This document shows, piece by piece, positions 18,254-39,200 of a DNA stretch of 64,000 nt. Each line of letters begins with the position of its first letter. Position 1 is the first letter of the stretch. The position numbers and the translations under genes are program-made. The DNA comes from Trichocoleus desertorum ATA4-8-CV12 (lineage in GTDB: Bacteria > Cyanobacteriota > Cyanobacteriia > FACHB-46), in the NCBI GenBank assembly GCA_019358975.1, contig JAHHIL010000003.1, forward strand, positions 124,001 through 188,000, written 5' to 3'. Under the pieces are notes generated by a model. It made no database searches and was not told the origin of the DNA. It saw only the letters and a program-made list of their open reading frames with translations.

Positions 18254-18649
18254 TCACCAACCCACTGTTTGCAAATTTTCTACCTCTTGAAAATGGGCAT
18301 CCCGCGTTACCAGAATCAGATCATGCTGTAGTGCAAGAGCTGCAATCCAAATATCATTTTCAGGCAATGGACGGCCTTTGAGCCTCAATTTATTCTTAAC
18401 TTCGCCATAGTGCCGAGCCGTTTCAGCGTCACACACCAATATTGTGCTGCTAGCAACTAATTCATCAATTCTTGCTAAATTTGCTTCAATTCGCCCTGAT
18501 CTCCTGGCTCCGTAACACAACTCGCCAATGACAATGCTTGGAATGAAAACTTCGCTGGCTTGAGCAAGATTTTCTTTGACGATCGCCTCATCTGCGAAAA
18601 GCGCAATAACGATGTTGGTATCGAGCAAAAACCTACCACTCATCGACAT
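18254..18649 (-). CDS. vapC: VapC-family PIN-domain toxin (type II TA)
   Basis: 131 residues, the usual PIN toxin length. The acidic active-site residues are visible: D10 in LLDTNIVIALF, a Glu in VIGELCYGA near residue 42, an Asp in ENDIWIAALAL near 100, and a last Asp in VTRDAHF near 117. This is the four-acid Mg-binding set of VapC RNases, which typically cut tRNA or rRNA. The start codon (ATG 18649, or 18643) lies inside the end of the antitoxin gene, overlapping by about 17 bases, which supports coupled translation. The gene sits in an AT-rich accessory patch with a 30-bp repeat just after its stop. Confidence 0.9.
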   Translation of the reverse strand: MSMSGRFLLDTNIVIALFADEAIVKENLAQASEVFIPSIVIGELCYGARRSGRIEANLARIDELVASSTILVCDAETARHYGEVKNKLRLKGRPLPENDIWIAALALQHDLILVTRDAHFQEVENLQTVGW

Positions 18650-18860
18650 CTATCTGTTCACAATCTTGCTCAATTGCCTCACGCATTAACTGAAGGTCAT
18701 CAGAAGAAATTGAACCAGCAAAACGCAACAACTGCTGCCCAGGCGTACCTCGAACTTCCGTTTTTACCAATGATCGAACAAATTCAAGCACCTGCCATTG
18801 CAAATGCTGAGGCATGACCTTTAATTGTTCAACAACTTCGTCGATGATAGGAATATTCAT
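18633..18860 (-). CDS. DUF2281-like antitoxin partner of VapC
   Basis: 75 residues. The reading frame is open much further upstream (to 19070), but the ATG at 18860 is clearly the start because AAGGAGGG lies five bases before it. The segment EQLKVMPQHLQWQVLEFVRSL matches short DUF2281-type proteins that in cyanobacteria commonly precede PIN toxins. The acidic C-terminus (SSDDLQLMREAIEQDCEQIDVDEW) would bind and block the toxin. It overlaps the toxin gene and is presumably autoregulated with it, though no operator was identified. Confidence 0.85.
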   Translation of the reverse strand: MNIPIIDEVVEQLKVMPQHLQWQVLEFVRSLVKTEVRGTPGQQLLRFAGSISSDDLQLMREAIEQDCEQIDVDEW

Positions 18861-19030
18861 ATTGCCCTCCTTGCTACATCCTACACCGCTTACCTGGAGA
18901 GCGATAGAAGAGCAGTCTTTAATGCTGATAGGGGGCTCATGGGGATTGCCTTCACTGGGGACTTCAGCCACATAGCGATTTCGTTCAGCGATCGCAGATA
19001 ACCTCTTCAACTCAATCAACCACACTAAAA

Positions 19031-19060
19031 CGTTCCGGTGCAGCGGGATTGTTATACGGC
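19031..19060. repeat. 30-bp direct repeat, copy 2 (after unknown operon)
   Basis: This is the second copy of the repeat at 18216-18245 (two mismatches). On the minus strand it begins GCCGTATAACAATCCCGCTG and starts 18 bases after the stop codon of the last gene of the unknown three-gene operon. Each copy therefore follows the 3' end of a transcription unit. Confidence 0.85.
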
Positions 19061-19078
19061 TGGTTAGCACGATAAATG

Positions 19079-19522
19079 CTACGACACCTCGGCAAGAAGC
19101 AAATGTTTCTCAAAAAGCTCTTTGAGCAATTTATACTCAACACCTATCATTGCATGACGGCTTAACCTTTCCTGCATCGAAATCTTATCTTTCTGATCAA
19201 ATATGTGCAATATATTCTTTTCAATAATTTGCTGAATAGTAGTCCAATTTTTCTCATCAATTAAGAATAGTGACGAGCTTTCAAGCTTAAAGATATATTT
19301 AAGTTTTTTACTAATTTCTGGATTTATCTCGATAGCTTGTTCATAGTCAATTACTATTTGCTCTAATGAAACTTCTTCAAAATATTGTCCTATCATATCT
19401 GACGCACAATGATCACTGCCTTTAAATAGACTTCTAAGAGCATCATGCACATTTTCTCTGGGAAAATTTTTGACCTCTTCAGAAAAGATAATCAGCTTAT
19501 AGAACGAAAATGCTTGAGACAT
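19079..19522 (-). CDS. AT-rich hypothetical protein, third gene of unknown operon
   Basis: 147 residues, not recognised. It is predicted all-helical and rich in Glu, Lys, Ile and Leu, with no membrane segment, signal peptide or cysteine motif (a single Cys near residue 39, in DHCASDMIGQYF). Codon use is strongly A/T-biased compared with flanking housekeeping genes. It starts nine bases after the stop of the preceding gene in the same direction, so the two are almost certainly co-transcribed. The 30-bp repeat follows its stop. No function can be assigned. Confidence 0.62.
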   Translation of the reverse strand: MSQAFSFYKLIIFSEEVKNFPRENVHDALRSLFKGSDHCASDMIGQYFEEVSLEQIVIDYEQAIEINPEISKKLKYIFKLESSSLFLIDEKNWTTIQQIIEKNILHIFDQKDKISMQERLSRHAMIGVEYKLLKELFEKHLLLAEVS

Positions 19523-19530
19523 AGCGATCC

Positions 19531-19905
19531 CTAAATATCTTTCCCGAAATTTTTGGCTCTGACATTCTGAATATAATTAATAAAATCTTGCATAGATTTA
19601 ACATCACTCATTTTTAATGCTTGTTTCAAGAATATTTGATACTGATTGCAGTCAAAATACTTAATCTTAACCAAATCTATGTATTGGGTTTGAAGTTCTC
19701 CAAGAACTTTTTCGGCGTCAGAACCAACTGTATTGATTGGGAAAAGGTAAGTGTACGCAGTAGGTATATTTCCTTTTTCCCAACGTTTTCTCAGCATATT
19801 TATTTTTTGGCGTAATTGTCGCGTGTCAACATTACTTCCTAAATTAGTGGGTGTGGTCATACACTCCCAAATACAATCATTTAAAGTCAGAGTTTCAGAT
19901 TGCAT
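19531..19905 (-). CDS. AT-rich hypothetical protein, second gene of unknown operon
   Basis: 124 residues from the ATG at 19905, four bases after the stop of the preceding gene; a TTG at 19920 would add five residues and overlap that gene. The N-terminal part contains CIWECMTTPTNLGSNVDTRQLRQKINMLRKRWEKG, a helix with basic character. The C-terminal half is helical (KSMQDFINYIQNVRAKNF). Nothing matches a family known to me. Low GC and tight spacing tie it to its two neighbours as one transcription unit. Confidence 0.6.
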   Translation of the reverse strand: MQSETLTLNDCIWECMTTPTNLGSNVDTRQLRQKINMLRKRWEKGNIPTAYTYLFPINTVGSDAEKVLGELQTQYIDLVKIKYFDCNQYQIFLKQALKMSDVKSMQDFINYIQNVRAKNFGKDI

Positions 19906-19909
19906 GATT

Positions 19910-20302
19910 TTACAAATCAATATTACTTGAAATATCTACATTTTTCTTCTGAGGAATCCTTCTTGTATAAGCTGCAACTTCAATCATTTTGCCATTTTTA
20001 GTTGTCTTGATATGCGCTTTAACAATTTCAATTCGTCCTTCAAAAAGCCCCTCTAATATCTCCTGCGCTTTCTCAGAAACAACAAAGTCTGTTCCGGGTG
20101 CATTACTAGATAGATCGTCTAAAGGTATATAGTCTTCATAGGGTTTCAATCCAAATTTTTTCATCAAGTCTTCAAATAAAGATTTGATGGATCTATCAAC
20201 GATAATGCCCTTTTCTGGAGGACTTAAGTACTGAAAATCAGGAATTAGCTTAAGCGCTTCTGTGAATATTGATTTGACAGAGGAAAGTGCGACGTGCAAC
20301 AT
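19910..20302 (-). CDS. AT-rich hypothetical protein, first gene of unknown operon
   Basis: 130 residues, not recognised. The N-terminal half is helical (SVKSIFTEALKLIPDF...SIKSLFEDLMKKFGLKPYEDYIPLDDL). The C-terminal half (GRIEIVKAHIKTTKNGKMIEVAAYTRRIP) has the alternating pattern of a beta-sheet with a Lys/Arg-rich surface. That would suit nucleic-acid or protein binding but is not diagnostic. It is the promoter-proximal gene of a three-gene AT-rich operon next to a toxin-antitoxin pair. An accessory role such as conflict or immunity is possible from context only. Confidence 0.6.
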   Translation of the reverse strand: MLHVALSSVKSIFTEALKLIPDFQYLSPPEKGIIVDRSIKSLFEDLMKKFGLKPYEDYIPLDDLSSNAPGTDFVVSEKAQEILEGLFEGRIEIVKAHIKTTKNGKMIEVAAYTRRIPQKKNVDISSNIDL

Positions 20303-20696
20303 ATGTCAATGAAAATCATTTGGCTTCGCGCTTAGAGTTCCCTGTTCTAAGCAATGTCTAACCAATTCTGAGTAGAAAGGTGCAGTAAGTTTAATACCAA
20401 TTACAAATGAACGTGAGCATGATTCAATCCCTGGAAACCTTACAAAGCAGACTTTTCCAAGATTACAAGTAATCGCACTTCATAGTTGATTGGTATAAGA
20501 TGATTTTTCTTAAGCGATAGATTTGTCTGCTGAGCGCTGAATCTTTCCGCTTTCACTAGAGAACTTTGCAAAGCTAAGCAATAACTAATCGAGTCCTGCT
20601 GGAAAGCTGTCCGGATATGGCAGGCCACAGGCCGATAATACTTTGCTAGAGTGTCAACGGCGTTGCGTATTCTGTCTGGCTAAGAGAGCTTGGGTC
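20303..20696. other. Intergenic region containing a possible small mobile repeat
   Basis: This 394-bp gap lies between the divergent unknown operon and the second DUF3352 gene. It should contain both promoters. It also contains the inverted-repeat element listed at 20394-20496. Otherwise no gene or RNA was seen. A TTG at 20643 opens the DUF3352 frame early, but the ATG at 20697 is preferred. Confidence 0.45.
20394..20496. repeat. Possible MITE-like inverted repeat element
   Basis: ATACCAATTA at 20394-20403 is mirrored by TGATTGGTAT at 20487-20496 (nine of ten positions pair). Similarity continues inward at a lower level (ATGAA on both arms), giving an element of about 103 bp. ATACCAAT termini resemble small non-autonomous elements in cyanobacteria. 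No second copy exists in the window, so this is tentative. Confidence 0.4.
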
Positions 20697-22445
20697 ATGA
20701 TCGAGAAGAAAAATAAAGTTGCTCTAGCACTCGCGCTAGGAGCAGCAGGCTTACTGATTGCAGGGGGAGCGGCGACCTACTGGTTTATTACTCAGAGAAA
20801 TACTGGGTCAGGCGATGTGCCTGCGGGAGCCAATATCATCCCGCAAACAGCGCTCATGGCGGTTTCGGTCTCTACCGATCCAAATCAGTGGCAAACCCTG
20901 AGACAATTTGGCACGCCAGAAACTCAAGCCTTGGTAGACCAAAACTTAGCTCAATGGCGCGATCGCCTGCTGACTGCCAACGGCTACAACTACCAGAAAG
21001 ATATTCAACCTTGGGTCGGCAAACAAGCCACCTTCGCCTTTCTACCTCCCCAATCACCGCCACCTGCTAGCTCTACGCCAAACCTCCCTGCTCCGACTCC
21101 AGGTGGACAACAATCGGTGGTGTTGGTTCTGCCCATTACCAATCCGGGGCAAGCACAGCAAGCGCTCTCGCAGCCCAAAACTGGCGTAGCGACCAAGTGG
21201 GCTCAGCGCGATTACAAAGGATTTCAGATTCGAGAAACCCAAGGAGCACCGACTCAAAATTACTCTGCCACCGTTTTGGATGGGCGCTTCTTAGTCGTGA
21301 CGACTGACCCGAAAGTCACCGATCAAGCGATCGACACCTATAAAGGAGGAGCTTCTCTTCTCACCGCTCCTGGCTATAGCGCTGCCTTCAGTAAGGTCGG
21401 CAACAATCAGGCTTTCGCTAACTTATATGTCAATGTGCCAGCCGCTGCTGCTGTGGCTTCCACCAGTTCAGCCGTTCCGGTCGCACCCGAAAGCCTCACC
21501 CAACAGATTCAAGGTTTAACCGCTACTTTTAACTTGCAGCCACAGGGTGTTCTGGTTCGGAGTGTTTCTTGGCTAAAACCAGACAGTAAGAAAAAGTATA
21601 CGGTTGAGAACGCGGCCAGAAGTATGACTAGCCGATTGCCCGCAGAAACCTTGGTTATGGCATCTGGTGGCAATCTCAAGCATCTCTGGGAACAGTACAT
21701 TCAAGGAGCTACTACCGCTACGTCTCCTAATCTGACCAATCCCCAAGTTTTACGGGAAGGACTTCAAACTCAGACGGGGTTAGACCTAGACAAAGATTTG
21801 CTGAAGTGGATGGATGGGGAGTTTTCGCTGGCTTTAATTTCCAACCCACAGAAAGCACCGACAGATTTACCCGCTGGATTGATGTTTATGGTGCAGGCCA
21901 GCGATCGCCGAGCCGCTGAAAAAGCCTTTAAACAGCTGGATGAGGTGATGACGAAGCGATACAACTTCAAAGTTAATGAAGTCAAGGTTGGCAATCAATC
22001 CACGATTACTTGGTCACCTGCTTTAGGAGGCGCGATCGCCAGTCATGGCTGGTTGGATAGTAATGTCGCCTTTTTGAGCGTGGGGGCACCTGTCGCCAAT
22101 GGCATTATCCCCAAACCTCTCACTCCTTTAGCCGCCAGTGAACTATTCCAAGCGACGGTGCCAACGGAGCTAAAACCTAACAATGGGCACTTCTTTATTG
22201 ATGTCGATCGCACCCTCAGCAGCAACTTAGCTTTGATTAGACTGGCCCCCAGCAGCCAGGTTTGGGCGAAGGCAATTCAGTCGATCGGGGTGACGGGAGC
22301 AATCAACGATGAGCGAACCACTCGCTACGATGTGTTTGTACGCTTGCGTCAGGGTAACAAGCCAGGTCCATTACCTAGCGCTTCCAGCAATCCTGGTGTC
22401 ACTCCTAGCCCCACCTTGCCTCCTTCTCCTACGCCATCTCCTTAG
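20697..22445 (+). CDS. DUF3352 domain-containing membrane-anchored protein (second copy)
   Basis: 582 residues from the ATG at 20697, preceded by GAGAG; the TTG at 20643 is rejected because the family N-terminus begins at MIEKKNKVALAL. A transmembrane anchor at about residues 7-28 is followed by the DUF3352 opening PQTALMAVSVSTDPNQWQTL. Later family blocks match the copy at 15163-16812: QKDIQPWVG, DPKVTDQAIDTYKGG and LLKWMDGEFSLA. It differs by a longer Pro/Ser/Thr-rich tail (ending in SPTLPPSPTPSP) and a Pro-rich insertion near residue 125. Probably an exported, membrane-tethered protein; molecular function unknown. Confidence 0.9.
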   Translation: MIEKKNKVALALALGAAGLLIAGGAATYWFITQRNTGSGDVPAGANIIPQTALMAVSVSTDPNQWQTLRQFGTPETQALVDQNLAQWRDRLLTANGYNYQKDIQPWVGKQATFAFLPPQSPPPASSTPNLPAPTPGGQQSVVLVLPITNPGQAQQALSQPKTGVATKWAQRDYKGFQIRETQGAPTQNYSATVLDGRFLVVTTDPKVTDQAIDTYKGGASLLTAPGYSAAFSKVGNNQAFANLYVNVPAAAAVASTSSAVPVAPESLTQQIQGLTATFNLQPQGVLVRSVSWLKPDSKKKYTVENAARSMTSRLPAETLVMASGGNLKHLWEQYIQGATTATSPNLTNPQVLREGLQTQTGLDLDKDLLKWMDGEFSLALISNPQKAPTDLPAGLMFMVQASDRRAAEKAFKQLDEVMTKRYNFKVNEVKVGNQSTITWSPALGGAIASHGWLDSNVAFLSVGAPVANGIIPKPLTPLAASELFQATVPTELKPNNGHFFIDVDRTLSSNLALIRLAPSSQVWAKAIQSIGVTGAINDERTTRYDVFVRLRQGNKPGPLPSASSNPGVTPSPTLPPSPTPSP

Positions 22446-24678: not shown

Positions 24679-26433
24679 CTAAGGCGCTGCTAACTCCGGC
24701 GTATTCATCAAGCTGATCAGCACTTGTCGCATTTCAGCGATCGCTTGCAATTGGTAGTCGCTGGCCTCTTGTACTTGATTAAACACACCCGCGATCGCCT
24801 CTAGCTTTTGTCGCAGCCCATCCACATGGTCTTGTACGGGTTGCATCATCTCTTGGTAAAGATTGACTCTACCCGACAGTTCCGCCAAATTAGTCCGCTG
24901 GGTTTGCAGATTTTGCTCTAGCTGCTTCAGCTCGTTTTGTTTCTGGGTTTGCTCATTAGATTGATGCTCGACCATGCTCTGGGCCTGCTGGATAGCACTG
25001 CGCATTTGCTCAATTTGGCTCTCAAGCTTTTGCAGTTCTTCCGCTTGCTGCTGCTTAATGTTTTCGATCTGAATTAAGGCAGGCCCCAAGTCAATCTCAC
25101 TCTCTTGTTTTACCGCTTCTGATTTGCCTTCTCGTCGCAGCAAAACTGCTTGATGTTGAGCCAGAATTTCTTCTCGCTCTTTGAGGTTACGCCGTTGCCC
25201 CACCAAGGTCTCATTCAGCATTTGATAACGGTCTTGCTCATCCGCTAGCTCGGTCTCTAGCCTGAGACGGTCATACTCGCTGGCCTTCGGAATCTGAGCT
25301 TGCACTTCTTCAATCGTCTGCTGCTGGAACCCTAACTCTTCTTCTTGGTCATTGACGAAACGCAGGATTTTTTCCCAGTCTCGCTGGAGGTCTTGCAGTA
25401 CTCCTTGCAGCTCTCCCAGAGGCATGGTTTCTAGCGCTTCAACGTCAACTTTAGGACTAATCTTCACTTTGTCTGAAGTTTCCGAAAGCCGATACAGTTG
25501 CTGGTGTAGTTCTTCTTGGGTTTGTAGTTGCAGCCCTAGCGTTTGGGCGTAGTCTTGCCGCAGGTGTAGGGCGTTTTGCTGCACCTTCAACTCACCTTTT
25601 GCCTGCTCCAAGGACGTTTGGGCTTGCTGCCACTCATCCCAACGACCTTGCAGATCTTGGGCTTGACGATCGACCTCTTGTTGTAGCTGTTGAGCACTGG
25701 CCCGTTGTTGTTCTAGCCGTTGCCAATGCTCGCTCAGAACGTTTTGCTGTCCATTAATAATTTCAACTGCTAAATTCAATTGCTCACGAGCCGATTCTGT
25801 AGGAGCTACGGAGCCAGATAAGCGATTGAGTAAGTCTTGAATTCTACTAGCTTGTTCATCATCTAATACCGCAGATTGCTGAATCTCGGCTTGGCGTTCC
25901 TCCAGACGGCGCATTTCGCCATGTAGATGAGCCCAAGCTCCCTCTAGCTCTTGATTGCGGCGCTCTAGTTCTTCCCGGAGTTGGTTGGCTTCCTCTCGCG
26001 ATCGCTCAACTTCTTGACGTTGCTGCTCTAGCTGCTCAAAATCTTCTTCTATTTGCTGAAGCTGCTCCCGCCGCGCTTCCATTTCCATTTCACGGCGATT
26101 CAGTTCCTGGCTTTGATAAGTCAGAGATTGCTTCCACTGCTCAATCTCCTCTTCCTGCGTCTTAAACTTTTCTTGCAGCCGAGAGAAATTTTGCAGAATG
26201 GTCACCAGTTGCCGAGATGCTTCCTGCAATCGCTGCACTTGCTTATTCGCAGTCAAATCAGCTAGCACCAAGGCTCCCGCGTTAAAGCTATTAGCCTCAT
26301 CTGAGGGAATAACTTCTTCTCCAGGGACAGCAGTCCAACTCTGTTCAGAACGCTGACAAGCCAGCAGCTTTAGCTCTGCCTTACCACTTCCAATAAATCC
26401 GGTCTTTTTTTGTACTTCTGCTAGATACAGCAC
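24679..26433 (-). CDS. hmpF: Pilus motility taxis protein HmpF
   Basis: 584 residues, GTG start at 26433. The first ~55 residues form a small conserved domain (LYLAEVQKKTGFIGSGKAELKLL). Nearly everything after residue 60 is Gln/Glu/Leu-rich coiled coil with heptad spacing. This is the architecture of HmpF, which in filamentous cyanobacteria and Synechocystis is required for type IV pilus-dependent motility and localises to cell poles or junctions in hormogonia. It stands divergent from an Hmp/Pil-type chemotaxis operon, which strongly supports the assignment. About 1 kb separates the two starts, implying shared or separately regulated promoters. Confidence 0.93.
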   Translation of the reverse strand: MLYLAEVQKKTGFIGSGKAELKLLACQRSEQSWTAVPGEEVIPSDEANSFNAGALVLADLTANKQVQRLQEASRQLVTILQNFSRLQEKFKTQEEEIEQWKQSLTYQSQELNRREMEMEARREQLQQIEEDFEQLEQQRQEVERSREEANQLREELERRNQELEGAWAHLHGEMRRLEERQAEIQQSAVLDDEQASRIQDLLNRLSGSVAPTESAREQLNLAVEIINGQQNVLSEHWQRLEQQRASAQQLQQEVDRQAQDLQGRWDEWQQAQTSLEQAKGELKVQQNALHLRQDYAQTLGLQLQTQEELHQQLYRLSETSDKVKISPKVDVEALETMPLGELQGVLQDLQRDWEKILRFVNDQEEELGFQQQTIEEVQAQIPKASEYDRLRLETELADEQDRYQMLNETLVGQRRNLKEREEILAQHQAVLLRREGKSEAVKQESEIDLGPALIQIENIKQQQAEELQKLESQIEQMRSAIQQAQSMVEHQSNEQTQKQNELKQLEQNLQTQRTNLAELSGRVNLYQEMMQPVQDHVDGLRQKLEAIAGVFNQVQEASDYQLQAIAEMRQVLISLMNTPELAAP

Positions 26434-27510
26434 GCCGATCGTCCTCTTCCGTGTCGATGCCCAGTTCCTTGTGTTAGATAAGCCTTCTGCCAGCAGATTG
26501 GTTCATTCTGCTAAACCCAGTCTAAGAAGAGAACATCGGTTGAGCAATATTCTTCGTCACTGGGCTTCCTGCTTAGAACGCTACTGAATCCACCTACATA
26601 AATACGAGAGGGTCATGATGAGTTCACTGCTCCTACCATCTCTAGTTAATTGGTTACTAGCTGCTGCTTACGACCAGCAATCTAAATTACAAGTGGGATT
26701 GCCCTCCTAAGCACTTTTGTCGTCGAAAACTCAACCATCTTAGCGTCATCGTATCCCTAAGACTGCTTCACCCATCACCTTGGGTTGAGCAAAGTCAATC
26801 TGTATTGACTTTAAAGGATTCCTACAGCAGATGGCTCTGCTAAAGGTAGAGTGACACAATCAACGGCTGAAAGTACAGGTCTAGCGCACCATACTAACCC
26901 TTACAACCCGCGATCCAGTGAGAATTGCAGTAAAAAGGCTATTTAGATCTAAATAATCAAAGTTTTGTCGGAGAAGCAAAAAATGTAATAGTTATAGCCT
27001 CAAGCCTTAGAGCCAGCCAAGTAAGGAAGATGCCAATAGCCCTGTCAAAGTCTTAAACTAAACTGAATATATACTTCAGTGACCCTGTACTATTTCCACA
27101 ATCTAGCATCATTTCTAGCAGAGATGTCGAAGCACCAATTCTTCAAAAAATTTTTCACTGACTAGTCCACGCTGACAGGTTAGTGGCATCTGCCCTGAGA
27201 AGGTCTGATGCTGAGTTAGGTTTTAGGATTAAGCTACAAAAAATTACTTTTGTTCCGTTGATCAACCAAATTTTTAATGTTACGAACAAGGGAAAACAGT
27301 AAGCACTTAGTCCTTCTGTTAGGCACTCATAGGGCAAAAACTCGTAGGAGGTTTGTAAAATTTTTAACGCAGGTTTGATTTCCTACTGATCGTCATTGTT
27401 TTTTGTAGGAATATCTGCGGTGGGCAAGAAACTTAAAACGATTTAGTTTGAGTCAGGTTTCCCCTTGACACGTGTCGAAGCTGTTCTTAGGAGAGCATCA
27501 TAGCTGCATC
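26434..27510. other. 1.1-kb divergent control region between hmpF and the chemotaxis operon
   Basis: This is the longest gene-poor stretch in the window. It is AT-rich from about 26900 to 27470 and lacks HIP1 octamers over most of its length. It should contain the promoters of hmpF and the PatA-like gene, possibly with a long 5' leader on the latter. A 31-codon ORF at 26615-26710 is the only coding candidate. No terminator or known RNA family was recognised, and no sigma-factor box could be assigned with confidence. Confidence 0.5.
26615..26710 (+). CDS. Possible 31-residue hydrophobic small protein
   Basis: An ATG-ATG start with GAGAGGG a few bases upstream opens a 31-residue frame. It reads MMSSLLLPSLVNWLLAAAYD and then a short polar tail ending before TAA. 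The first 18 residues could be a membrane-inserting helix. It lies in the hmpF/chemotaxis divergent region. It may be real or chance; only the ribosome binding site and hydrophobic pattern support it. Confidence 0.3.
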   Translation: MMSSLLLPSLVNWLLAAAYDQQSKLQVGLPS

Positions 27511-28788
27511 ATGCAAGGCAAGTTAAACGAGATAGACATCCGCAGCATTCTACAACTGATTGAACTGGGTCAACGAACCGGGGAGCTTTGTGTTGAAGCT
27601 TATGGTGCTTTGCCAAGCCTGATGAGCAGTGAGCGTCTAGGGCGATCGCTATCTAGCCAGTCTTGGTTTGTCTTTTTCCTCAACGGCCAAATTGTCTATG
27701 CTGCAGAAGGGGATGGCAATTTAGCACGCCTGCGTGACTATCTTCGTCGCTACAAAGTAGAAGCGGCACTCGACACTGTCACTGTCCCTTCGATTGCTGC
27801 CATTAATGCCCCTGAGTACGGCTACTTGTGGGCCTTGTTAGAGAACCACCTCCTAACCCCAGCCCAAGGCCGCAGCATCATCCGCAACATGGTGCATGAA
27901 ACGCTTTTTGACTTACTGAGCTTGCATCAAGGTTTGTTTATTTTTGAAATTGGCTCCGCCCTATCCCCCCAGCTCACCACCTTGGAGATTAACCCGCTGG
28001 TAGCCAAAATCATGAAGCAAGTCCAAGAGTGGAAACAATTTCACCCCCACATCCAATCACCTGATCAGTGCCCGATTATTGCTGATGCCAATCAGCTACG
28101 GAAAGCGTTGCCCGAAAAGGCCTTCAATAGCCTAGATCGTTGGGCTGATGGCAAAACCTCAGTCCGCCAAATGGCTCGTTATCTCAATCGAGACATCCTT
28201 ACAGTTGCTAGAGCAATTTATCCGTATGTGCAGCAAGGACTTGTACAACTGCTGTACCCTACCGCCAAAGAAACGGCTGCTCACAAGCGGACATTTACGT
28301 TTCAAACTGCCCGGACTCCCAGAGTCCTTTGTATCGACGATGGCACCAGCATCCGCAAAGCAGTGGAGTACATCTTAAGTCAACATGGTTATGAAGCCAC
28401 ATCAATTGGGAATCCTCTAAAGGCACTCAGTTTAGTATTTCAACTCAAGCCAGATTTGATTCTTTGTGATATTGCTATGCCTGAGTTGGATGGTTACGAA
28501 ATTTGTGCCATGCTACGCAAATCAACGGCTTTCCGGCAAACTCCTATTGTGATGTTGACGGGTAAAGATGGATTTATTGATCGGGTAAAAGCTCGTATGG
28601 TCGGGGCAACTGACTACCTCACTAAACCGTTTGGTGAAAATGAGCTGCTCATGCTAGTGGAAAAATACGCTGGCTCAGGTGACCCCAACCATCCCAAACC
28701 GGATAGGTTACTGGCTGACGCCCTAGAGGACGAGCTAGAAATTGACATTGCTGGTCCAGCTTCTGCTTCCTCAGCGCCTTTTGGTTAA
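27511..28788 (+). CDS. PatA-type response regulator (PATAN + receiver)
   Basis: 425 residues from the ATG at 27511, which begins the PATAN/DUF4388 domain with MQGKLNEIDIRSILQLIELG; a GTG at 27472 would add 13 residues. The PATAN region spans about 1-240. The receiver domain spans about 270-390: DD in VLCIDDGTS, phosphoacceptor D320 in ILCDIAMPELDG, and Lys in YLTKPFGE. This matches the PatA-subfamily regulators (PilG of Synechocystis) that head pil/hmp chemotaxis operons and act as CheA outputs on pili. First gene of the run PatA-CheY-CheW-MCP-CheA. Confidence 0.92.
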   Translation: MQGKLNEIDIRSILQLIELGQRTGELCVEAYGALPSLMSSERLGRSLSSQSWFVFFLNGQIVYAAEGDGNLARLRDYLRRYKVEAALDTVTVPSIAAINAPEYGYLWALLENHLLTPAQGRSIIRNMVHETLFDLLSLHQGLFIFEIGSALSPQLTTLEINPLVAKIMKQVQEWKQFHPHIQSPDQCPIIADANQLRKALPEKAFNSLDRWADGKTSVRQMARYLNRDILTVARAIYPYVQQGLVQLLYPTAKETAAHKRTFTFQTARTPRVLCIDDGTSIRKAVEYILSQHGYEATSIGNPLKALSLVFQLKPDLILCDIAMPELDGYEICAMLRKSTAFRQTPIVMLTGKDGFIDRVKARMVGATDYLTKPFGENELLMLVEKYAGSGDPNHPKPDRLLADALEDELEIDIAGPASASSAPFG

Positions 28789-28932
28789 GCATTGAGGGTA
28801 TTTTAGTGATTAATGAGTGATTAATCTAAAGATCAAGGATTAAGGTGACTAATACAAACCTAAGGATTAAGTTTAAGGGTGTACAAGGTCGATCTTTCCC
28901 GTTAACCTTTGCAGTTAGCAGGTAGGGTAGTT

Positions 28933-29298
28933 ATGAGTACAGTTCTAGTTGTGGAAGATAGTGTCACGCAACGGGAGATGATCACAGACCTTCTCAAAGG
29001 GAGTGGCCTAACTGTTACTGTAGCTAGCGATGGGGTTGAGGCATTAGAGCGCATCCAATCACAGTGCCCTGATTTGGTGGTCTTGGATATTGTGATGCCG
29101 CGCATGAACGGGTATGAGGTTTGCCGTCGATTGAAAGCAGATCCTAAGACCCAAAATGTCCCAGTCGTCATGTGCTCTTCTAAAGGTGAGGAGTTTGACC
29201 GCTACTGGGGCATGAAACAAGGTGCGGATGCTTATATTGCCAAACCTTTTCAACCCACAGAGTTAGTAGGAACAGTCAAACAGCTGCTACGAGGATAG
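28933..29298 (+). CDS. CheY-type single-domain response regulator
   Basis: 121 residues from the ATG at 28933, preceded by GGTAGGG; the upstream TTG at 28909 is not needed. It is a complete receiver domain: E-D pair in VVEDSVTQ, phosphoacceptor D52 in VVLDIVMPRMNG, and Lys in AYIAKPFQP. This is the second gene of the pilus chemotaxis operon, equivalent in position to PilH/PixH/HmpB-type proteins. It would be phosphorylated by the hybrid CheA and act as an output or phosphate sink. The CheW gene starts ten bases after its stop, so the two are co-transcribed. Confidence 0.94.
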   Translation: MSTVLVVEDSVTQREMITDLLKGSGLTVTVASDGVEALERIQSQCPDLVVLDIVMPRMNGYEVCRRLKADPKTQNVPVVMCSSKGEEFDRYWGMKQGADAYIAKPFQPTELVGTVKQLLRG

Positions 29299-29308
29299 GT
29301 AGACGTGA

Positions 29309-29839
29309 ATGGTTGGGAATCCAGATTTTTTAACAGGTAGAGGTCAAGACCAAGCTCCAGAATTTCAGGAATTAGAAAGTCCTGAAGGTGAGTTGCACTT
29401 AAGATTCTACGTATCTTCTGGCAATGAGTTTGCTTTACCTGCCACAGGAATTCGGGAAGTGATTTCGCCTTCACCGGATCGGATTACCCCCATTCCCAAC
29501 GTTTCTCCCTTACTTTTGGGTACGCTGAATGTACGTGGGCGTGTCATTTGGGTGGCTGATTTAGGCCAGTTTCTGGGCGATGCTAATTCTCTCAATACGG
29601 ATAGACCAGAGATTCCTGTCATTGCAGTAGAAGATCAAGACACCATGTTAGGGTTAGCGGTTGATCGAATTGTGGGGATGGATTGGCTAGACATTGATGA
29701 GGTGCAAATGCCAGCAAACGTTCCGGATAGCATGGCTCCGTTTCTACGGGGCGAATGGATGACGGACAGTCAAGATGACAAGCTGCTCCGATTACTCGAT
29801 CAAATCGCAATTCTTCGATCAGCGCGGTGGGCAGCATGA
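29309..29839 (+). CDS. CheW-like adaptor protein
   Basis: 176 residues. The CheW fold is recognisable from about residue 30: LRFYVSSGNEFALPATGIREVI, PIPNVSPLLLGTLNVRGRVIWVADL and VEDQDTMLGLAVDRIVG. A conserved DSMAPFLRGEW near residue 142 is typical of cyanobacterial pilus-type CheW proteins (PilI/PixI). It couples the MCP to CheA in the receptor array. The start ATG is ten bases after the cheY stop. The first 28 residues are variable and acidic. Confidence 0.94.
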   Translation: MVGNPDFLTGRGQDQAPEFQELESPEGELHLRFYVSSGNEFALPATGIREVISPSPDRITPIPNVSPLLLGTLNVRGRVIWVADLGQFLGDANSLNTDRPEIPVIAVEDQDTMLGLAVDRIVGMDWLDIDEVQMPANVPDSMAPFLRGEWMTDSQDDKLLRLLDQIAILRSARWAA

Positions 29840-29952: not shown

Positions 29953-32928
29953 ATGGCATCCAGCACTGAGTACGCGCAAGAATATCAACAAGCGCAGAAG
30001 GCATATTATCAGGGAAGCTATGATGAGGCGGCTGCGATCGTCGATCGCTTGACTCAAGACTTTCCTGATGACCCCAGTGTCCATCTTCTGAGGGGACATA
30101 TCTACTGCTACGGACTCCAGCAGTATGATGTGGCACGCGAGCAATATCAACGTGTGCTGGGCTTAACCTCTGATCCAGAATTTCTCGATTATGCAAATAG
30201 CGGATTGGCTTACACTAACGAACTTGCTGTTGATGAGGGAGTTTCTTCAGCCGCCAATTTGGATGATGGGTCTGCTAATTTTCAAGAGCTGGAGGATTCT
30301 TCAAATAGCTCTGACTATGGGGCCGCAGAAAGTTGGCAGTCCTATGAAGAACCCGCTTTTGACTTTAACAACGCTGAGTTAGAAAGCTTCGACGATTTTG
30401 ACTCTGGCTTGGGTTTGGCAGAAACCCCGATGGCTTTTGATCAGCCGTTTGATGAACCTGTTGATACGCCTGCGACGGAAGCACCCTTTGGTGATCCCTT
30501 CTCTAGTGGCACCTCCTACTCCAATGCTGCACCTTTAGAAAATGCTGCCGATCCGTTTGTCTTTGATGAATATCTTGATACTCAAGATTCAGGAATTCAG
30601 CAACCATCCGCATCAGCCAGCTCTGACTTTTCGCCCTTTGGAGCTGACGCCGATCTGGGTCAAGGCGAATTTGATGCCTCTCTAGACCAGTTTGACGATG
30701 TCTTTCAGCCTCTAGACTTTCCAGAAGACGATGTGAGTGCGGATGCTTCGTTGTATGCGGTGAGCGATCAAGATAGGCCGTATAGCGATCCGTCACCTTC
30801 CCCAGGCTTTTCGGTGGGTGGTGACGCTTCTTCAAGTAGTCCCTTTAGTGCGAATTCTCCCTTAAGAGAAGACGAAACGCTCTTCATGGCTGATGAGGAA
30901 GCGGACGATTTTAACGCTGATAGTTTTGGCTATGCGGATCCAGATTCAGCAGACTACGGTGCCAGTAACTACGAGCAAGATGAGCAAACCTTTGTCTCAT
31001 CTTCTAGTTGGAATGGGTTTGACGCTCAGGACAACTTGAACGTCAGTACCTTTGATGATGGTTTTTCGGGCACAGAGCCTGCGACCGAAGGCCCCTCTTC
31101 TAGCGAAGGCATTGGCCGCCAGAGTAGCATTGACTTTCTTGATGAGTTCGATGAGTTTGATGACCTAGGAAATCTCCCCGATTTTGATATCTCTGAAAGT
31201 TCTGCTGGCTTTACGAGTCCTTCTGTCGGTTCAGCCGCATTTGGCGGTTTGGGTGGGACTTCGGGGTTAAACAGCCGCCGAGGTCAAGAGAATGCTTCGC
31301 CAGAAGCTGCTGCGGGGTTGGGCTTTACTTCCAGTATGGGAGATGTCGATTTCAGCGATAGTGGCGATCGCTCCATTATTCGGGATGACGAAGTATTCGG
31401 GATTGCTGGCAACTCTGAACAAGTTCCCATCTTTACCCAAAACGACAGCCTGAATGTTGAGCCCACTGTCACGGCTGAGCAGGGTATGTTGTCGTTCCTA
31501 GACAATGCCTCCCTGAAAACCAAGCACTTGATCACAGCAGGTGCGGTCGGAGTGATCTCAGCTTTAGCCGTTGCAGCTGTTAGTTGGGCAACCGCTCGGG
31601 GTGCCGTAGAGGAAAAGCGGCCCGAAGTCGTTGCTAGCTTGAGACAAACTGGGCTAATTATGGCTCTCGTAGCGGGTGTCAGTAGCGGCGGTGTGGCTTA
31701 CTTCATGGGGCGCAAAACTGCTAAACAAATTCAGCGAGCGACTGATAATTTGCAAGCTCAATTTCAGTCTGTGTCGCAAGGAAACCTGGATGCTAGAGCG
31801 TCCGTTTACTCAGAAGATGAATTTGGCCAGTTAGCCGCTGGGTTTAACCAAATGGCACGAGTCATCCTCACAACAACCAGTGAGGCGCAGCGGAAGGCAG
31901 AGGAACAAGAGCAGGCCAAGGAAGACCTACAACGTCAAGTGATTCGCCTCTTAGACGACGTAGAAGGCGCAGCCAGAGGTGACCTCACAGTTCAAGCTGA
32001 AGTAACCGCTGACGTACTGGGGGCGGTTGCAGATTCGTTTAACTTAACGATTCAAAACCTGCGCGAAATTGTGCAACAGGTGAAGTTGGCAGCCCGACAG
32101 GTGAACAAAGGCGCTTCTGACAGTGAAATGTTCGCTCGCGGCTTATCATCTGACGCTTTACGGCAAGCAGAAGAGTTAGCTGTGACGCTCAATTCTGTCC
32201 AGGTCATGACTGACTCGATTCAGCGGGTGGCTGAAAGTGCTCGCCAAGCTGAAGAAGTGGCTCGGTCGGCATCGGCAACGGCCCTCAAAGGGGGTGAGGC
32301 AGTAGAAAGCACGGTTTCCGGTATTCTCAAAATCCGCGAAACGGTGGCGGAAACGACTCGAAAGGTAAAGCGGCTGGCCGAATCGTCACAAGAAATTTCA
32401 AAAATTGTGGCGTTGATTTCTCAGATTGCTTCTCGTACCAACCTGCTAGCACTTAACGCTAGTATTGAGGCAGCGAGAGCGGGTGAGGCTGGACGTGGGT
32501 TCGCGATCGTTGCTGATGAAGTCCGACAGTTAGCTGACCGGGCCGCAAAAGCTTCTAAGGAAATTGAGCAGATCGTGCTACAAATCCAGAGCGAAACAGG
32601 CTCCGTGATGACGGCCATGGAAGAAGGGACTCAACAGGTGATTGAGGGGACTCGCTTAGCAGAACAAGCGAAGCGATCGCTGGAAGACATTATTCAAGTG
32701 TCTAACCGCATTGATGCCTTGGTTCGTTCCATTACTGCCGATACAGTAGAGCAGACCGAAACCTCAAGAGCCGTAGCTCAGGTCATGCAATCGGTCGAAC
32801 TGACAGCTCAAGAAACTTCCCAAGAAGCCCAACGAGTTTCGGGATCTCTACAAAACCTAGTAGGTGTAGCCCGTGACCTCTTGACTTCCGTAGAACGATT
32901 CCGCGTAGAAACAGGAGATCGGCAGTAG
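29953..32928 (+). CDS. Methyl-accepting chemotaxis protein with N-terminal TPR and long acidic linker
   Basis: 991 residues. Residues 1-95 form TPR-like helices ([20 protein letters not shown]...[12 protein letters not shown]). About 95-515 is an Asp/Glu/Ser/Phe-rich low-complexity linker. Two transmembrane helices lie near 528-548 and 566-588 with only a short loop between them, so there is no periplasmic sensor domain. HAMP-like segments follow (about 590-700). The signalling hairpin carries the tip [35 protein letters not shown] near 824-858. It has no GAF domains, so it is a PilJ/HmpD-type rather than a PixJ/TaxD1 photoreceptor. The sensory input would come from inside the cell through the TPR and linker. 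Confidence 0.93.
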
Positions 32929-33221: not shown

Positions 33222-36200
33222 ATGCAGTCAGAACAACAGCAGCGAATCATGGGTTACTTCATTGAGGAGGCCAAAGACCACCTCAACACCATTGAGCAAG
33301 GTTTGCTGAATCTGCAGAGCACCATCGAAGACTCTGAAATGGTGAATGAAGTCTTCCGAGCGGCTCACTCTGTCAAGGGCGGAGCGGCAATGCTAGGAAT
33401 TAATAGCATTCAGCAGGTTTCGCACCGTCTAGAGGACTGCTTCAAACTCTTAAAAGAGTGCCCCATCAAAGTTGATCAAAAATTAGAGTCATTATTCCTC
33501 AGGGTGTTCGATACTCTGCACGAACTCCTAGAGCAACTCCAAGGGCCATTTGGTCTGACTGAGGATACTGCTAACGGCATTATGTCAGGCATTGAGCCGA
33601 TTTTTACCGAGCTTACCAATCACTTGGAAGGACTCATCACTCAAGCAGGCGGTGTGATTCCGGTCGAAGAAGGGTCTAGCTTTATACCTGTTGTGGTTGA
33701 GGCTACCCCAATCCCGGTTTCAGCCGCTCCTCTGCATCAAGAAGAAAGCGCTCTGCTATTGCTTTTCCAAAGTGATGTGCCGACTCGCTTACGCGAGATG
33801 TTGCAGTTGTTTAAGCAGTCCGAAAATTCAGAGAATCGCCAACAACTGCAAGACCTTTGCCGTGGTTTGGGGCAACTGGGTGAACCGTTCGATTTGCCGA
33901 GTTGGTGCGATTTGCTTGAGGTGACACGACAGGCGATCGCTTGTCCGGATAATGCTTATCGCACTCTAGCTCCGATTGTCATCAAAGAAATCAAAAAAGC
34001 GCAAGAATTGGTTCTATCTAACCAAGCAGCAGCCATTGTAGCGAGTGATGCTCTGAGCGTTTTAGTGCCAATTTCGTCTGCCGCAGCTGAGACAGAGCCC
34101 ACCTTTGATGACCTGCTGGCTGCGGATATCTTTGAATTTGCTAACGAACCGGAAGAGTCTCTGACGGGAGCCTTCGACCTATTTGAAGCCGCAGAAGATC
34201 CCTCTGAAGTTGACATTTTCGCTGTGGATCTGGCTGAGGACAGTCAATCAGCAGATAGTCAGTCAGCTGGGCTGGACGATTGGTTTAGTGGTGCCCCTCT
34301 AGAATTAGACGCAACGACCAGTGACGCAGCTCTCGGTCTAGACCTATCCGCTAATCTCAGTGGAGATGCGGCAACGCCTGAGCAGTCTACAGGCGATCGC
34401 AACGGTCCAGAAGTAGGGATGGCAGAGCTAAACAGCCTAGCCGACCTCTTTGAAGGTGAAGTTCTGGATTTGGGCGTCACTTGGCAAGAAGAAGAAATTA
34501 TTAGAGAGGCAGCTGAGTCGATAGAAAGCTCCGCAAACAATGCAGTCAACTCAGATGATTTCGATTTCTCGGATGACTTCTCAGATTTACTCTTTGAGGA
34601 GCCAGATGGGAGCGGTTCCTCTGCCAAAGCCAAGGCAGCAGATGATCTAGCCAGCTTGTTTGGCAGTGATGACTTACTCAACGATGAATCTCTCGACTTG
34701 CCAGAATTCGAGGAAATCGCTGATACGTCACTGGATGCAGCCGCGATCGCCCCGGAAGCGCAACCGGATGAAGACTTCCTAGGGGAATTGGCAGACGGCT
34801 TTGAGTTAGATGTTCTCGTAGTCGAGTCATCTGTGGACAGCTCTACTTTGGAATTCTCTGAATTTGAGACTTCAGAATTTGAGACTTCAGTAGCTAATGC
34901 CCCTGCGGAGGAGCTAGAGAGCTTTACGGATTTATTTGTTGATGTAGATGAGACTGAGCTATTTGTTCTAGAAACCTCTACGGAAGAGGCCACTACAGTT
35001 AACTCAGGCGATTTAAGCTCAGATGAGCTAGACTCAGACGCTCTAGGCTCAGATGATTTCACTGATTTTCTCAGTGAGTCTACTGCACAAATCTCTTTTG
35101 AGGCGCTAGAGAGCGAGCCAGATCTCTTTGCTTCTGAGCCTATGTTGGAGGCTGATGCGGAATTAGAACTCGCTCTAGACAGCCCAGAATCCATCGGGCT
35201 ATTCGGTGAAGAAGTTGCTCCGGAATTGGTAGCAGATAATCTGGCGGTAGATGAGACAGACCTTGACAATCTCTTTGAAACCCCTGAAGACTCTGCATTC
35301 TTAGCGGACACCACCTCCACAGCAATCAGCGACCCCACAGCAATCGACGATGAAGATGATCTATCCAATGACCTTTGGTCAGAGGGAAATACCGACTCCT
35401 CAGAGCCAGTTGTTTCGTGGTTAGACACTCCTCTAGATGAGACAGAAGAGGAACCGTTTGATTTGTCCTTAGATCTAGGGGAACTCAGTGCTGAGACAGA
35501 AACCGCTGATTTTCTGGGTGATTTCTCTGAAGAAGTAGCAGCCACAGAGGCCGCAGAAACAGATTTAAATGACCTGTTTGCTCCTAGTGAAGACCAAGAA
35601 TTAATCCTTGATACTAGTGCCACCAATTCCTTAGCAGTAGACCCAACTCCTGAACAGCCTCCAGCGGCGATCGCTGATCCTTGGGAGGAGCAAGGGCTAG
35701 CAGACAGTACCTCCGATTCTGAGCCTGCTTGGAATTTAGATCCCCTAGATGAAGATCTTTTAGCAACTCCGGAAGCCATTAGCGATGGTGGAGAAAATCC
35801 TTTTGATGCAGTTGGTGAAGAGTTAGAAAGCTTGGACTTTGATCTAGAGGTATCCCAAGATCTTGATGACGCCTTCATTTTTGCCGCAGAAGCTGACGAA
35901 GAGTTACTGCTAGAAGAACCAATAGAAGAACCAACGGGCGAAGCAGAAGTGTCTGATTGGACGCTGGCTGACCTGGGAGATTCTAGCGATGAATTGAGTC
36001 TAGACTTGCTCGAAGATTCCAGTGCCGAAGATTCCAGTACAGATGCGATGTCAGATCTTTGGGATACAGATGCTTTTGAGCAACAGAGCTTAGATGCTGC
36101 TGTTGCTGAAACTGATCTCAGTAGCGAGTTTGACTCGGCGTTATTGCCAGAAGAACCTGGTGAAGAACTCAGTGACGCTGATGAATTTGCCGACTTCTTG

Positions 36201-39200
36201 CTTGAAACGGAGCTGGTTGAAACAGAACTGGTTGAAACAGAACTGAGCGATCGCGTTGATGATCTTAGCGTTGATGACAGCGCTGGTGATCTTGGCTTTG
36301 AACTCAGTCGTGATGAAACGACCGACCTTTGGGGAGACGACTCCGCAGCCACAGATGAGTCAGCCTTGGATGACTTATCTCTAGGTACATCGGTTGCGGC
36401 TACTGAGAGCACCGACAACCTAATTTTTGAGGAAACCATTGAAGAATCGGTTGCAGAGCCCGTTACAGAGGCTTTAGATTTAGCCGATATGTTCGCTGAG
36501 TCTGCTGAACTTAGCGAGTTAATGGCTGGTGCAGAAGAATTCGATTTTGATCTGGCCAGCGATGAAGCTAGCGATCTAGAGGTTGAAGCGTCTACATCCG
36601 AAGCTGATCTAACATCGCTGAGCGCAGAGGATACGGGGGATTGGGGTGGTTCTGCTGATGACCCACTAGCAAACTTTTCTATAGAAGCTGATTTTGCTGA
36701 TGCCACAGCAGACCCGGATCAGGTGAGTTCCGACACGGATGATTTTGACTTTGACTTCATGACTAGCGATGGAGCTGATGATCGTGAGGTCGGAGAGTCT
36801 ACAACAGAATTGGATGGGCTCTTCGACGCCACAGCTTCAGACACCGATCTCTTTGATCAAGAATTGTCGTTAGAAGTGGCAGAGCCAAATTCTGATTTGG
36901 GCGATCTAGCAGACTTTATGGGTGAGCCTCTAGAAGCTAGAGATGCTAGCTCAGACCTGAGCGAACTTGAAGGTTTATCACTCAGTGATTTGTCGATCGA
37001 TCAGCCAGAAACTCCTGAAGACCTTAGCTTTGAGCTTGCAGCAAATACATCGGACGAGCTAGACTTTGGCGCTGACTTGACTTCGTCGGCGGACTTAGGA
37101 GACTTGTTGGATGACTCGCCATCTGAGCCAGATGCGATCGCTTTCGACTTAGACAACTTTGATGATTTGTCACTCGATCAACCATCGGCTGAGTCACCAG
37201 AGACTAGTGAAGACTTTATCTTTGAGCCAGCAGAAACCTCCAACGAACTGGACTTTGGTGCTGAGTTAGACTTCGACCTAGACGCAACTAGCAGCAATAC
37301 TGAAGCTGATGCTCTGGCTGATATTACCGCCACCGAATCCTTAGACACTGCTGATTTTGCCTTCGACTTAGACAGTTCAGATGCCAGCTTCAATGAAGAT
37401 GAACTAGAATTTGACAGCTTATTGGCATCTGATCTCGATCTAAGCGAATCTTTGACACCCGTGGAGCCATCCATAGAAACTGAGAGCGAGTTGGACTTTG
37501 GGACCGAACTGGCAGCAGAGCCGTCTATAGAGGCGGAGAATGAGCTGGATTTCGGGGACGAACTAGCGTTAGAAGGTTTATTTGATGCAGAACCATCATT
37601 AGATAACCTCAGCGAAGCCGATCTGTTTGGGTTATCTGATGAGCCATCTGAAGCGTTAGATAACCTTAGTGAAGCCGCTATTGACGAAGATACAAATAAT
37701 GAAAACTGGCTTGGTGACTTTGATGCTGGTGTAGCTGACATAGCAACTTCTACAGACGCAGACTCTGCCACTAGCGACGAGTTAGGTGACTTCTTCGCCA
37801 CAGAGTCGAGTGATTCCACAGCTGACGAACCAGTTGATCTTTTTGCTGATTCCCTAAATACCGAAGCGGTAGCCGAAGATGACTTTGGCTTCGACACGCT
37901 CGATTTCTCTGATTTATCTTCTAACGAAACAGATGAATTGAGTGACGCGTCAGCCGAGTTGGATGCACTATCTGCTCTGGTAGAGGATGACTTAACAACT
38001 CCTACAGAATCAACCCTAGAACAGCCAACAGAATCCAGCTTTGACTTCGATGAAGTAGACCTTGATCTCTTCGATGTGGCACCAGACACAGCCGCTGCCA
38101 GCGTTGCAGATACGGGAGATTTTGATTTCAGCTTAGAAAGCTCTGAAGCAGTAGATGAAAACGATTTTGATTTATTCGCGCTTGACTCAGCCGATGACTT
38201 CTCTAGCAGCTTAGATCTTAGTCAACAGACCAATTCAGATGTGACAGATACTAGTGACACTGATTTGGATGACTTCTTAGCCGCAGCGATGGAAGATAGC
38301 TCACAGGATAGCTTTGATTTCGCTACAGAGTCAGCTGGGTCTTTAGACAACTTTGATGATTTAGAGGCATTACTCAACGAAGATGACTCTGCCACGTCAT
38401 CCTCCGCATCTGTTGCTTCAGAAGATGCAGACTTCTCTGGGCTAGAAGCTTTACTAGATGAGGAACCTTCAGGTTGGAATACTGGGTCGGGAGGCGCTGC
38501 TGCTTTTGATGGAGTTGCGGGCAATGCTGACTCTGCTAGTGGCCTAGATGGTGAGTTTGATGACCTAGAAAAGCTGCTAGAGGATGCTGATAACACCCTA
38601 GGTGGACCCCCGACTGTGAAGACTAGTCGAGGAGCGGCTCCTCAGTCTAGCCGTCGGCCTGGTCGTCGCGGAGCTGCGGGTTTTGCTGAGCAGACCATGC
38701 GAGTCCCCGTAAAACACCTGGATAACCTGAGTAACCTGGTTGGGGAACTGGTGGTTAACCGGAATAGCTTGGAGCAAGACCAAGAACGGTTACGGCAGTT
38801 CCTAGATAATTTGCTTTATCAAGTGCAGCAACTCAGCGATGTGGGGCAGCGAATGCGTGACTTATACGAGCGATCGCTATTGGAAAGCTCACTCTTAGCG
38901 AGTCGCCAAAGTCATCAGTCTCCCCTACATAACACTAATGCTAATGGTGGGGCTCAGAACAGCCATTCTACAGGAGCTAGCTTCGATGCCTTGGAGATGG
39001 ACCGCTTTACGGGGTTCCATACTTTATCCCAAGAGATGATCGAGTTAATTGTCCGAGTGCGGGAGTCTGCGTCTGACATTGAGTTCATCGTGGATGAAAC
39101 CGATCAGGTGACTCGGATGTTCCGGCAAGTCACGACGCAACTGCAAGAAGGTCTGACTCGTTCCCGAATGGTGCCTTTCGCCCAGATTGCCGATCGCTTG

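Follow-up and report, generated by a model that had tools for sequence, protein, structure and literature searches.

Acidic linkers of the receptor and the kinase in a cyanobacterial pilus-taxis operon co-vary in acidity, not in length, and carry different candidate docking motifs

The MCP receptor and the CheA kinase of an Hmp/Tax3-type pilus-taxis operon both carry a long acidic linker. Across species, the acidity of the two linkers and their choice between aspartate and glutamate (D:E) co-vary modestly, and this does not run through length, phenylalanine content, operon position or base composition. The explanation we prefer, with a probability of about one half, is that the two linkers act as disordered docking strings, alike in general design and different in motif sets and specificity. 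The operon lies in a 64-kb window, the whole stretch of DNA analysed, of a 6.06-Mb cyanobacterial genome (Table 1). Many cyanobacteria steer their pilus-driven movement with the Hmp/Tax3 system, whose kinase lacks P2.

Table 1. Genes, linkers and short conserved elements of the operon, with positions in the 64-kb window
Feature	Position	Strand	Basis
HmpF, coiled-coil, acidic	24679..26433	-	NCBIfam taxis_HmpF NF038350, E=5.7e-229
PATAN/DUF4388-receiver output regulator (HmpA/PilG type), candidate docking partner	27472..28788	+	Pfam DUF4388, Response_reg
CheY-like single receiver	28909..29298	+	Pfam Response_reg
CheW adaptor	29309..29839	+	Pfam CheW
MCP (HmpD/PilJ-type receptor), 991 aa	29953..32928	+	TPR_16 11-71 (below its cut-off), HAMP 590-636, MCPsignal 768-948
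MCP acidic linker, residues 86-515	30208..31497	+	Composition; boundaries from alignment of flanking domains
MCP acidic-aromatic island, residues 395-414	31135..31194	+	Column conservation, 158 distinct linkers
MCP juxtamembrane island RDDEVF...EQVPIFTQ...EPTVTAEQG, residues 477-515	31381..31497	+	Column conservation, 158 linkers
CheA (HmpE/PilL-type kinase), 2474 aa	33222..40646	+	Pfam; AlphaFold2 models of 1-300 and 1704-2474
CheA acidic linker, residues 276-1815, 1540 aa	34047..38666	+	Composition; flanking-domain alignment
FxDLExLL copy 1, FDDLEALL, CheA 1711-1718	38352..38375	+	Motif search; AlphaFold2 helix 1712-1719
FxDLExLL copy 2, FSGLEALL, CheA 1738-1745	38433..38456	+	Motif search; AlphaFold2 helix 1740-1745
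FxDLExLL copy 3, FDDLEKLL, CheA 1779-1786, adjoins dimerisation domain	38556..38579	+	AlphaFold2 helix 1778-1793, pLDDT ~63-73

The MCP adjoins CheW and CheA, the gene order of PilJ-type receptors in a pilus-taxis operon. A TPR-like N-terminus is followed by the acidic linker, two membrane helices joined by a short loop, HAMP and MCPsignal. The membrane helices were located by reading the sequence, not by a profile match. Since they precede the cytoplasmic HAMP domain, the TPR and the linker should face the cytoplasm. Pfam gave no match for a periplasmic ligand-binding domain in the MCP, and about 20 residues separate the helices in the sequence. CheA runs from Hpt and a second four-helix domain through the acidic linker to the dimerisation, ATPase, CheW and receiver domains. 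As in Tfp-class CheAs, Hpt, dimerisation, ATPase, CheW and receiver domains were all matched by Pfam in a single chain. The Pfam scan returned no P2/CheY-binding domain. It found one Hpt; the second four-helix bundle is an AlphaFold2 prediction at residues 171-265. A PDB search with the whole Hpt and four-helix module was topped by P1/Hpt entries, with the second domain inside the joint query, and fold searches were topped by known CheA, receiver and Hpt structures. HmpF scored 761 bits against a NF038350 cut-off of 200. The operon members correspond to HmpA-E and PilG-L by name; in the published Hmp nomenclature, HmpD is the MCP.

Elsewhere in the window, two full-length DUF3352 proteins (15163-16812, minus strand, and 20643-22445, plus strand) lie about 4 kb apart on opposite strands. 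Four small ORFs of 129-147 aa without a Pfam match stand in a row at 18633-20302 (minus strand), adjoined by a PIN-domain ORF at 18254-18649.

A sequence-only reading had described an acidic low-complexity stretch between the TPR and the membrane helices of the MCP, and composition and domains bear this out. MCP residues 96-515 (30238-31497) contain 13.8% D, 7.6% E, 15.7% S and 8.8% F, with no K and 1.7% R, and have a net charge of -83, or about -0.20 per residue for the linker. The charge per residue was below -0.1 in all 158 distinct MCP linkers. CheA residues 281-1800 contain 16.8% D, 13.8% E, 12.3% S, 12.6% L and 6.1% F; the net charge is -455, and about -0.30 per residue for the linker. 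Five of 102 CheA linkers were longer than that of the window. Three opposite-strand frames over the CheA linker (34259-36706, 37178-38089 and 38222-38596, all minus strand; 815, 303 and 124 aa) are serine-rich and look like by-products of its codon composition, not genes.

Of the chemosensory proteins covered in this genome, only this pair has such stretches. Among seven MCPsignal ORFs, one (1005 aa) has such an acidic stretch, and the other six are 277-569 aa long. Among the two ORFs with a dimerisation domain and the CheA-like ORF of contig C8, one CheA (2483 aa) has it; the other CheA-like ORFs have 881 and 806 aa. In the paralogous chemosensory loci examined, no more than a single acidic segment (191 aa) was present. 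Two kinases of other genomes have an unusual make-up. At locus L158 (G119), the CheA frame begins at the second four-helix domain, without Hpt, and reads as ending in two receiver domains. At L308 (G155), a fused CheA has a linker of only 107 residues by the boundaries used. Its Hpt has AAQSLQTEA in place of the usual AAHSxKG stretch, so that the phosphorylatable histidine may be missing.

The two linkers resemble each other in composition and in the acidic surroundings of F, W, Y and L. The units that had been named as repeated in both are not repeats: FDDFD, DEFDEFDD, SAFGG and DxFDxxF occur 1, 1, 0 and 1 times in the MCP linker and 0, 0, 0 and 1 times in the CheA linker. The MCP reads SAAFGG where SAFGG was named. 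When either linker was used to search its own genome, it matched only itself, and no homology between the two was detected. Shared repeat units or homology were rejected on these counts and searches. Composition alone sorted MCP from CheA linker pieces with 97.6% accuracy (101 species). Leucine was lower in the MCP linker in 100 of 101 species, and the enriched patterns differ between the two.

The likeness lies in the placement of residues. An excess of D/E around F/W/Y/L over shuffled sequences was found in 99/100 species for the MCP and 100/100 for CheA, and the same numbers remained after the motif-rich parts were cut out. FtsY served as a comparison. Its N-terminal linkers are long, acidic and rich in E, A and P, and reach 100 aa or more in 72 of 80 cyanobacterial genomes. 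Its linkers show the excess in only 7/72, and the tendency is mostly reversed. Other acidic segments show it in 31/42, with z > 2 in 8, which is weaker than in MCP and CheA. Aromatic residues and leucine thus stand amid acidic neighbours beyond what composition gives, as described for acidic exposure; this is a likeness of design, not membership. The observed resemblance was therefore real for composition and residue grammar and wrong for repeated units.

Loci were taken from two sets, 80 via CheW and the MCP locus from 89 genomes, with some genomes in both (e.g. L089 = L018, L090 = L048). Among the 170 loci (the window and L009-L177), an MCP linker was obtained in 162, a CheA linker in 106, and both within one stretch in 104. 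Eight loci had no MCP linker: L042, L049, L171 and L173 had no in-frame TPR match, and L035, L059, L062 and L076 were short with an incomplete MCP. After removal of two duplicate pairs, 102 distinct pairs remained; the CheA linker had at least 200 aa in 101. The FtsY set comprised 80 of 83 wanted genomes (without G062, G044 and G231), 68 of which had all three linkers long enough.

Correlated expansion of the two linkers had been put forward as a test of their coupling. The raw Spearman correlation of their lengths was -0.38, and phylogenetic contrasts gave r=0.06 (p=0.53, 102 pairs) and, in the FtsY-genome set, r=0.005 (50 contrasts). Correlated length expansion was rejected on these contrasts. 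The length of the CheA linker follows that of the FtsY linker (contrast r=0.43). Such data invite the explanation that the linkers are entropic spacers, which would only keep domains apart and mobile; acidity would be a default for solubility and the likeness a convergence. The lengths vary freely, from 152 to 791 aa in the MCP and from 6 to 1736 aa in CheA, and are uncoupled. The absence of detected homology agrees with spacers as well, and general linker growth predicts the correlation with FtsY. Spacers leave the residue grammar unexplained, by which both linkers differ from that of FtsY, and the paralogous MCPs and CheAs of the own genome do without such linkers. Together with the split kinases described below, in which acidic region and motif survive where nothing is tethered, this makes a pure spacer role rather unlikely, though it deserves to be taken seriously.

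Composition gave a different result. Contrasts of the 102 pairs yielded r=0.58 for D, 0.40 for net charge, 0.29 for E, 0.21 for F (p=0.038), 0.09 for S and -0.13 for L. Sixteen composition features were tested, and a 16-fold correction was applied to the permutation and rank tests. D, E and net charge passed both tests, K+R and G passed only the permutation test, and F passed neither. With GC and the composition of the folded domains removed, 0.54 remained for D, 0.34 for charge and 0.15 for F. A coupling of composition was thus found for acidity (D, net charge and D:E), and not, after controls, for F and S, on which the earlier reading had laid weight.

This coupling may report a shared bias of the genome, in that weakly constrained linkers follow its D:E or base preference. 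Such a bias would be compatible with docking strings and with spacers. The D:E of the remaining ORFs in the locus indeed tracks that of each linker (r 0.35 and 0.36). Several controls speak against it as the full cause. The D:E coupling was 0.52 before and after control for FtsY in 68 genomes, and the D:E of FtsY itself was uncoupled from the two linkers (0.14 and 0.09). Coupling of net charge fell from 0.44 to 0.35 under this control; FtsY charge was also coupled, with 0.40 and 0.38. For D, FtsY serves only imperfectly as a control, since its linker is rich in E and has a mean of 4.4% D; further controls were added for this reason. With the other ORFs of the locus as control, 0.37 remained for D:E and 0.28 for charge. 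With other acidic segments of the loci, 0.48 and 0.29 remained. Third-position purine/pyrimidine bias, GC and core D:E together left 0.44 for D:E. An explanation by genome bias is accordingly unlikely, and base composition as the cause of the coupling is not supported, as the coupling survives the GC and third-position controls. The coupling is stronger for the choice between D and E than for net charge, though D and E differ little in charge. This, like the coupling of FtsY charge, counts against the preferred docking-string explanation.

Unlinked pairs were also available. CheA was searched in 37 genomes and matched in 36, with none in G107. In 23 unlinked MCP/CheA pairs, r was 0.55 for D:E, 0.66 for charge and 0.29 for D alone (p=0.18). 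Operon proximity as the cause of the like composition is not supported, as the coupling holds in these pairs.

A positively charged partner shared by both linkers had been proposed, with HmpF as the scaffold. HmpF has a net charge of -41 and a pI of 4.71, and no 40-residue window, taken every 20 residues, exceeded +1. It is acidic along its length and was rejected as a cationic scaffold, which rules out the simple form of the suggestion. HmpF, CheW, CheY and the PATAN regulator each have a negative net charge, and no cationic partner was found among these operon proteins. Published work describes interactions of HmpF with Hfq and PilT, and a relocation of HmpF that Hmp controls (PMC12288463). 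Polar HmpF is described there as dynamic and Hmp-dependent, which suits a co-condensation at the pole, in which both acidic-aromatic linkers would enter one putative condensate with a shared cationic partner. Also in its favour, the acidity of both linkers co-varies beyond controls, and both bear aromatic residues and many sites. Against it, the like charges of the linkers repel each other, their F content does not co-vary after control, and no cationic partner turned up among the operon proteins. Co-condensation is therefore very doubtful. The earlier interpretation is partly supported: the linkers are coupled in acidity but not in length, and HmpF does not suit the role proposed for it.

Conserved islands stand out in the MCP linker in one MAFFT alignment of disordered sequence. 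The island at residues 395-414 is a degenerate signature, because its strict form, FDDLGx[LFM]PxFD, was present in only 23/102 MCPs; it was present in 0/102 CheAs. The juxtamembrane island reaches the first membrane helix. NPF/DPF is enriched in MCP linkers, with 2.31 against 0.42 per linker.

The CheA linker has another motif, FxDLExLL. Its strict form, F.[DEGN]LE.L[LIM], was found in 92/101 fused linked CheA linkers, compared with 0.005 copies per linker in shuffles. Nine of the 101 linked CheAs lacked it, as did all 102 MCPs. A relaxed motif was present in the last 75 linker residues of 96/101 linked CheAs, against 0.006 expected. In fused unlinked CheAs, the strict motif was found in 2/11 and the relaxed form near the dimerisation domain in 10/11. 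The rarity of the strict form in unlinked CheAs and its absence from nine linked ones weigh against docking. A CheA can have up to five FxDLExLL copies, mainly in the final fifth of the linker, close to the dimerisation domain, where 183 of 223 occurrences of a related pattern also lie. Leu1782 is invariant among 70 aligned sequences, and Phe1738, Leu1741, Leu1745, Phe1779 and Leu1786 are at least 90% conserved. AlphaFold2, run on a single chain, predicted helices on all three copies of the window, and the flanks mostly had pLDDT < 50. The structure alignments comprised 70 of the 78 available sequences (A1) and 62 of 91 (A2). A search of the open-access literature, which omits most subscription papers, retrieved no description of these linkers or of FxDLExLL. 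The hypothesis of a docking motif in CheA, with candidate partners, is the most useful new element of this analysis; it is supported by the conservation and by the split kinases described below.

The helices could also act in cis, folding back onto the dimerisation/ATPase core and inhibiting or gating the kinase. Their place beside the dimerisation domain would suit this, and the last copy is a predicted helix of 16 residues with moderate confidence. Extra copies lie farther upstream, and the copy number of a related pattern, DLxxL[FL], climbs with linker length (rho 0.53), which speaks against such a fold-back. Regulation in cis is quite improbable. Kinases that are naturally divided bear on docking in trans, as preferred here.

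In 17 genomes (family labels f3, f6, f14, f17 and f29), the Hpt module is a separate gene. Sixteen of these Hpt ORFs have 282-346 aa and one has 644 aa (G093, best match); 16 end 13-57 residues past the module. The C-terminal kinase opens with an acidic region no shorter than 118 residues; measured lengths are 118-354, with at least 400 in G225 and partial masking in G066. This region cannot tether P1, because the Hpt module is on a separate protein. Strict FxDLExLL is nevertheless retained in 15/17 of these C-terminal kinases. A motif that is kept where there is no tethering is hard to explain by a spacer role. Most PilL-N proteins of split genomes, e.g. L322 (G016; the PilL-C is L302), have a conserved tail of about 47 residues with a pattern like ILIPxEPxxAAxxLLxxFxxxQxxQLVxLL, which was not seen in the fused form.

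The kinase of Synechocystis is likewise split into PilL-N (Hik36) and PilL-C (Hik43) (PMC7656254). In two-hybrid assays, Hik43 without its catalytic, CheW and receiver parts bound Hik36 (PilL-N) and Rre6 (PilG), and Hik43 without its N-terminal part, including the dimerisation domain, bound neither (PMC7656254). These data fit docking through the motif-bearing region. The published deletion also removed the dimerisation domain, and for this reason the binding site of Hik36 and Rre6 may be that domain rather than FxDLExLL.

The docking-string explanation starts from what is observed: both linkers are long and acidic, poor in K and R, and have their F, L, W and Y surrounded by D and E. The acidic setting would keep short hydrophobic motifs soluble and exposed. 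In CheA, the motif would recruit the phosphotransfer module (the PilL-N part), the PATAN response regulator or both, and would do the work of the missing P2 domain. The islands of the MCP would present other partners near the membrane. Acidity may co-evolve because both strings work in the same crowded, anionic receptor-kinase layer. Linker length is nearly free. A broader version is more tentative, and we regard it as possible rather than probable: FxDLExLL would be a phylum-wide substitute for P2, a multi-copy helical docking motif with which the pilus CheA of cyanobacteria recruits its own phosphotransfer module and the PATAN regulator. The covalent link would then be dispensable, so that the kinase could split, and the receptor would have a matched acidic string with other motifs, the pair being co-tuned in acidity.

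A conserved motif that outlives the split of the kinase is a direct, mutable target. The results suggest that the acidic filler, which is the most striking trait of these proteins and runs from hundreds to over 1500 residues, has an organisation and is not junk. They also suggest that two partner proteins can be coupled in composition when neither their lengths nor their motifs are.

Known systems share parts of this design. Synechocystis has the same kind of kinase in its tax3/pilG system, with the gene split into PilL-N (Hik36, slr0073) and PilL-C (Hik43, slr0322), and the split relatives found here match it (PMC7656254). The CheA of the window is instead fused and has an acidic linker of 1540 residues. 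In Synechocystis, the interaction was assigned to the N-terminal part, and the accessible text gives no description of a motif (PMC7656254). ChpA of Pseudomonas aeruginosa is similar: this large CheA lacks P2, has additional Hpt-type domains and ends in a receiver at its C-terminus (PMC10782961; PMC12632253). Its length is due to folded Xpt domains, whereas that of the window CheA is mostly acidic linker. PilJ of P. aeruginosa has a periplasmic ligand-binding domain, unlike the window MCP, in which none was detected. Long dimerisation domains are reported for cyanobacterial Tfp CheAs, and the word 'disordered' is absent from the main text of that study (PMC10782961).

CheA of Escherichia coli, with its order P1-linker-P2-linker-P3, also has long linkers around a regulator-docking element (PMC10782961). 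Its docking element is a folded P2 domain; in the window CheA, a short helical motif would take this role if the docking hypothesis holds. The window MCP has a string of about 430 residues N-terminal to its membrane helices. The tether of E. coli receptors, in contrast, is a short C-terminal tail. With its pentapeptide, which docks CheR/CheB, this tail resembles the proposed design as a flexible tether with a short motif in a chemosensory array (PMC7390727; PMC10561060). Eukaryotic acidic activation domains are similar in that hydrophobic residues are clustered with acidic ones (PMC10550315). They are unrelated by descent or function, and the analogy is one of design only. The acidic exposure model is the mechanism proposed for these eukaryotic domains.
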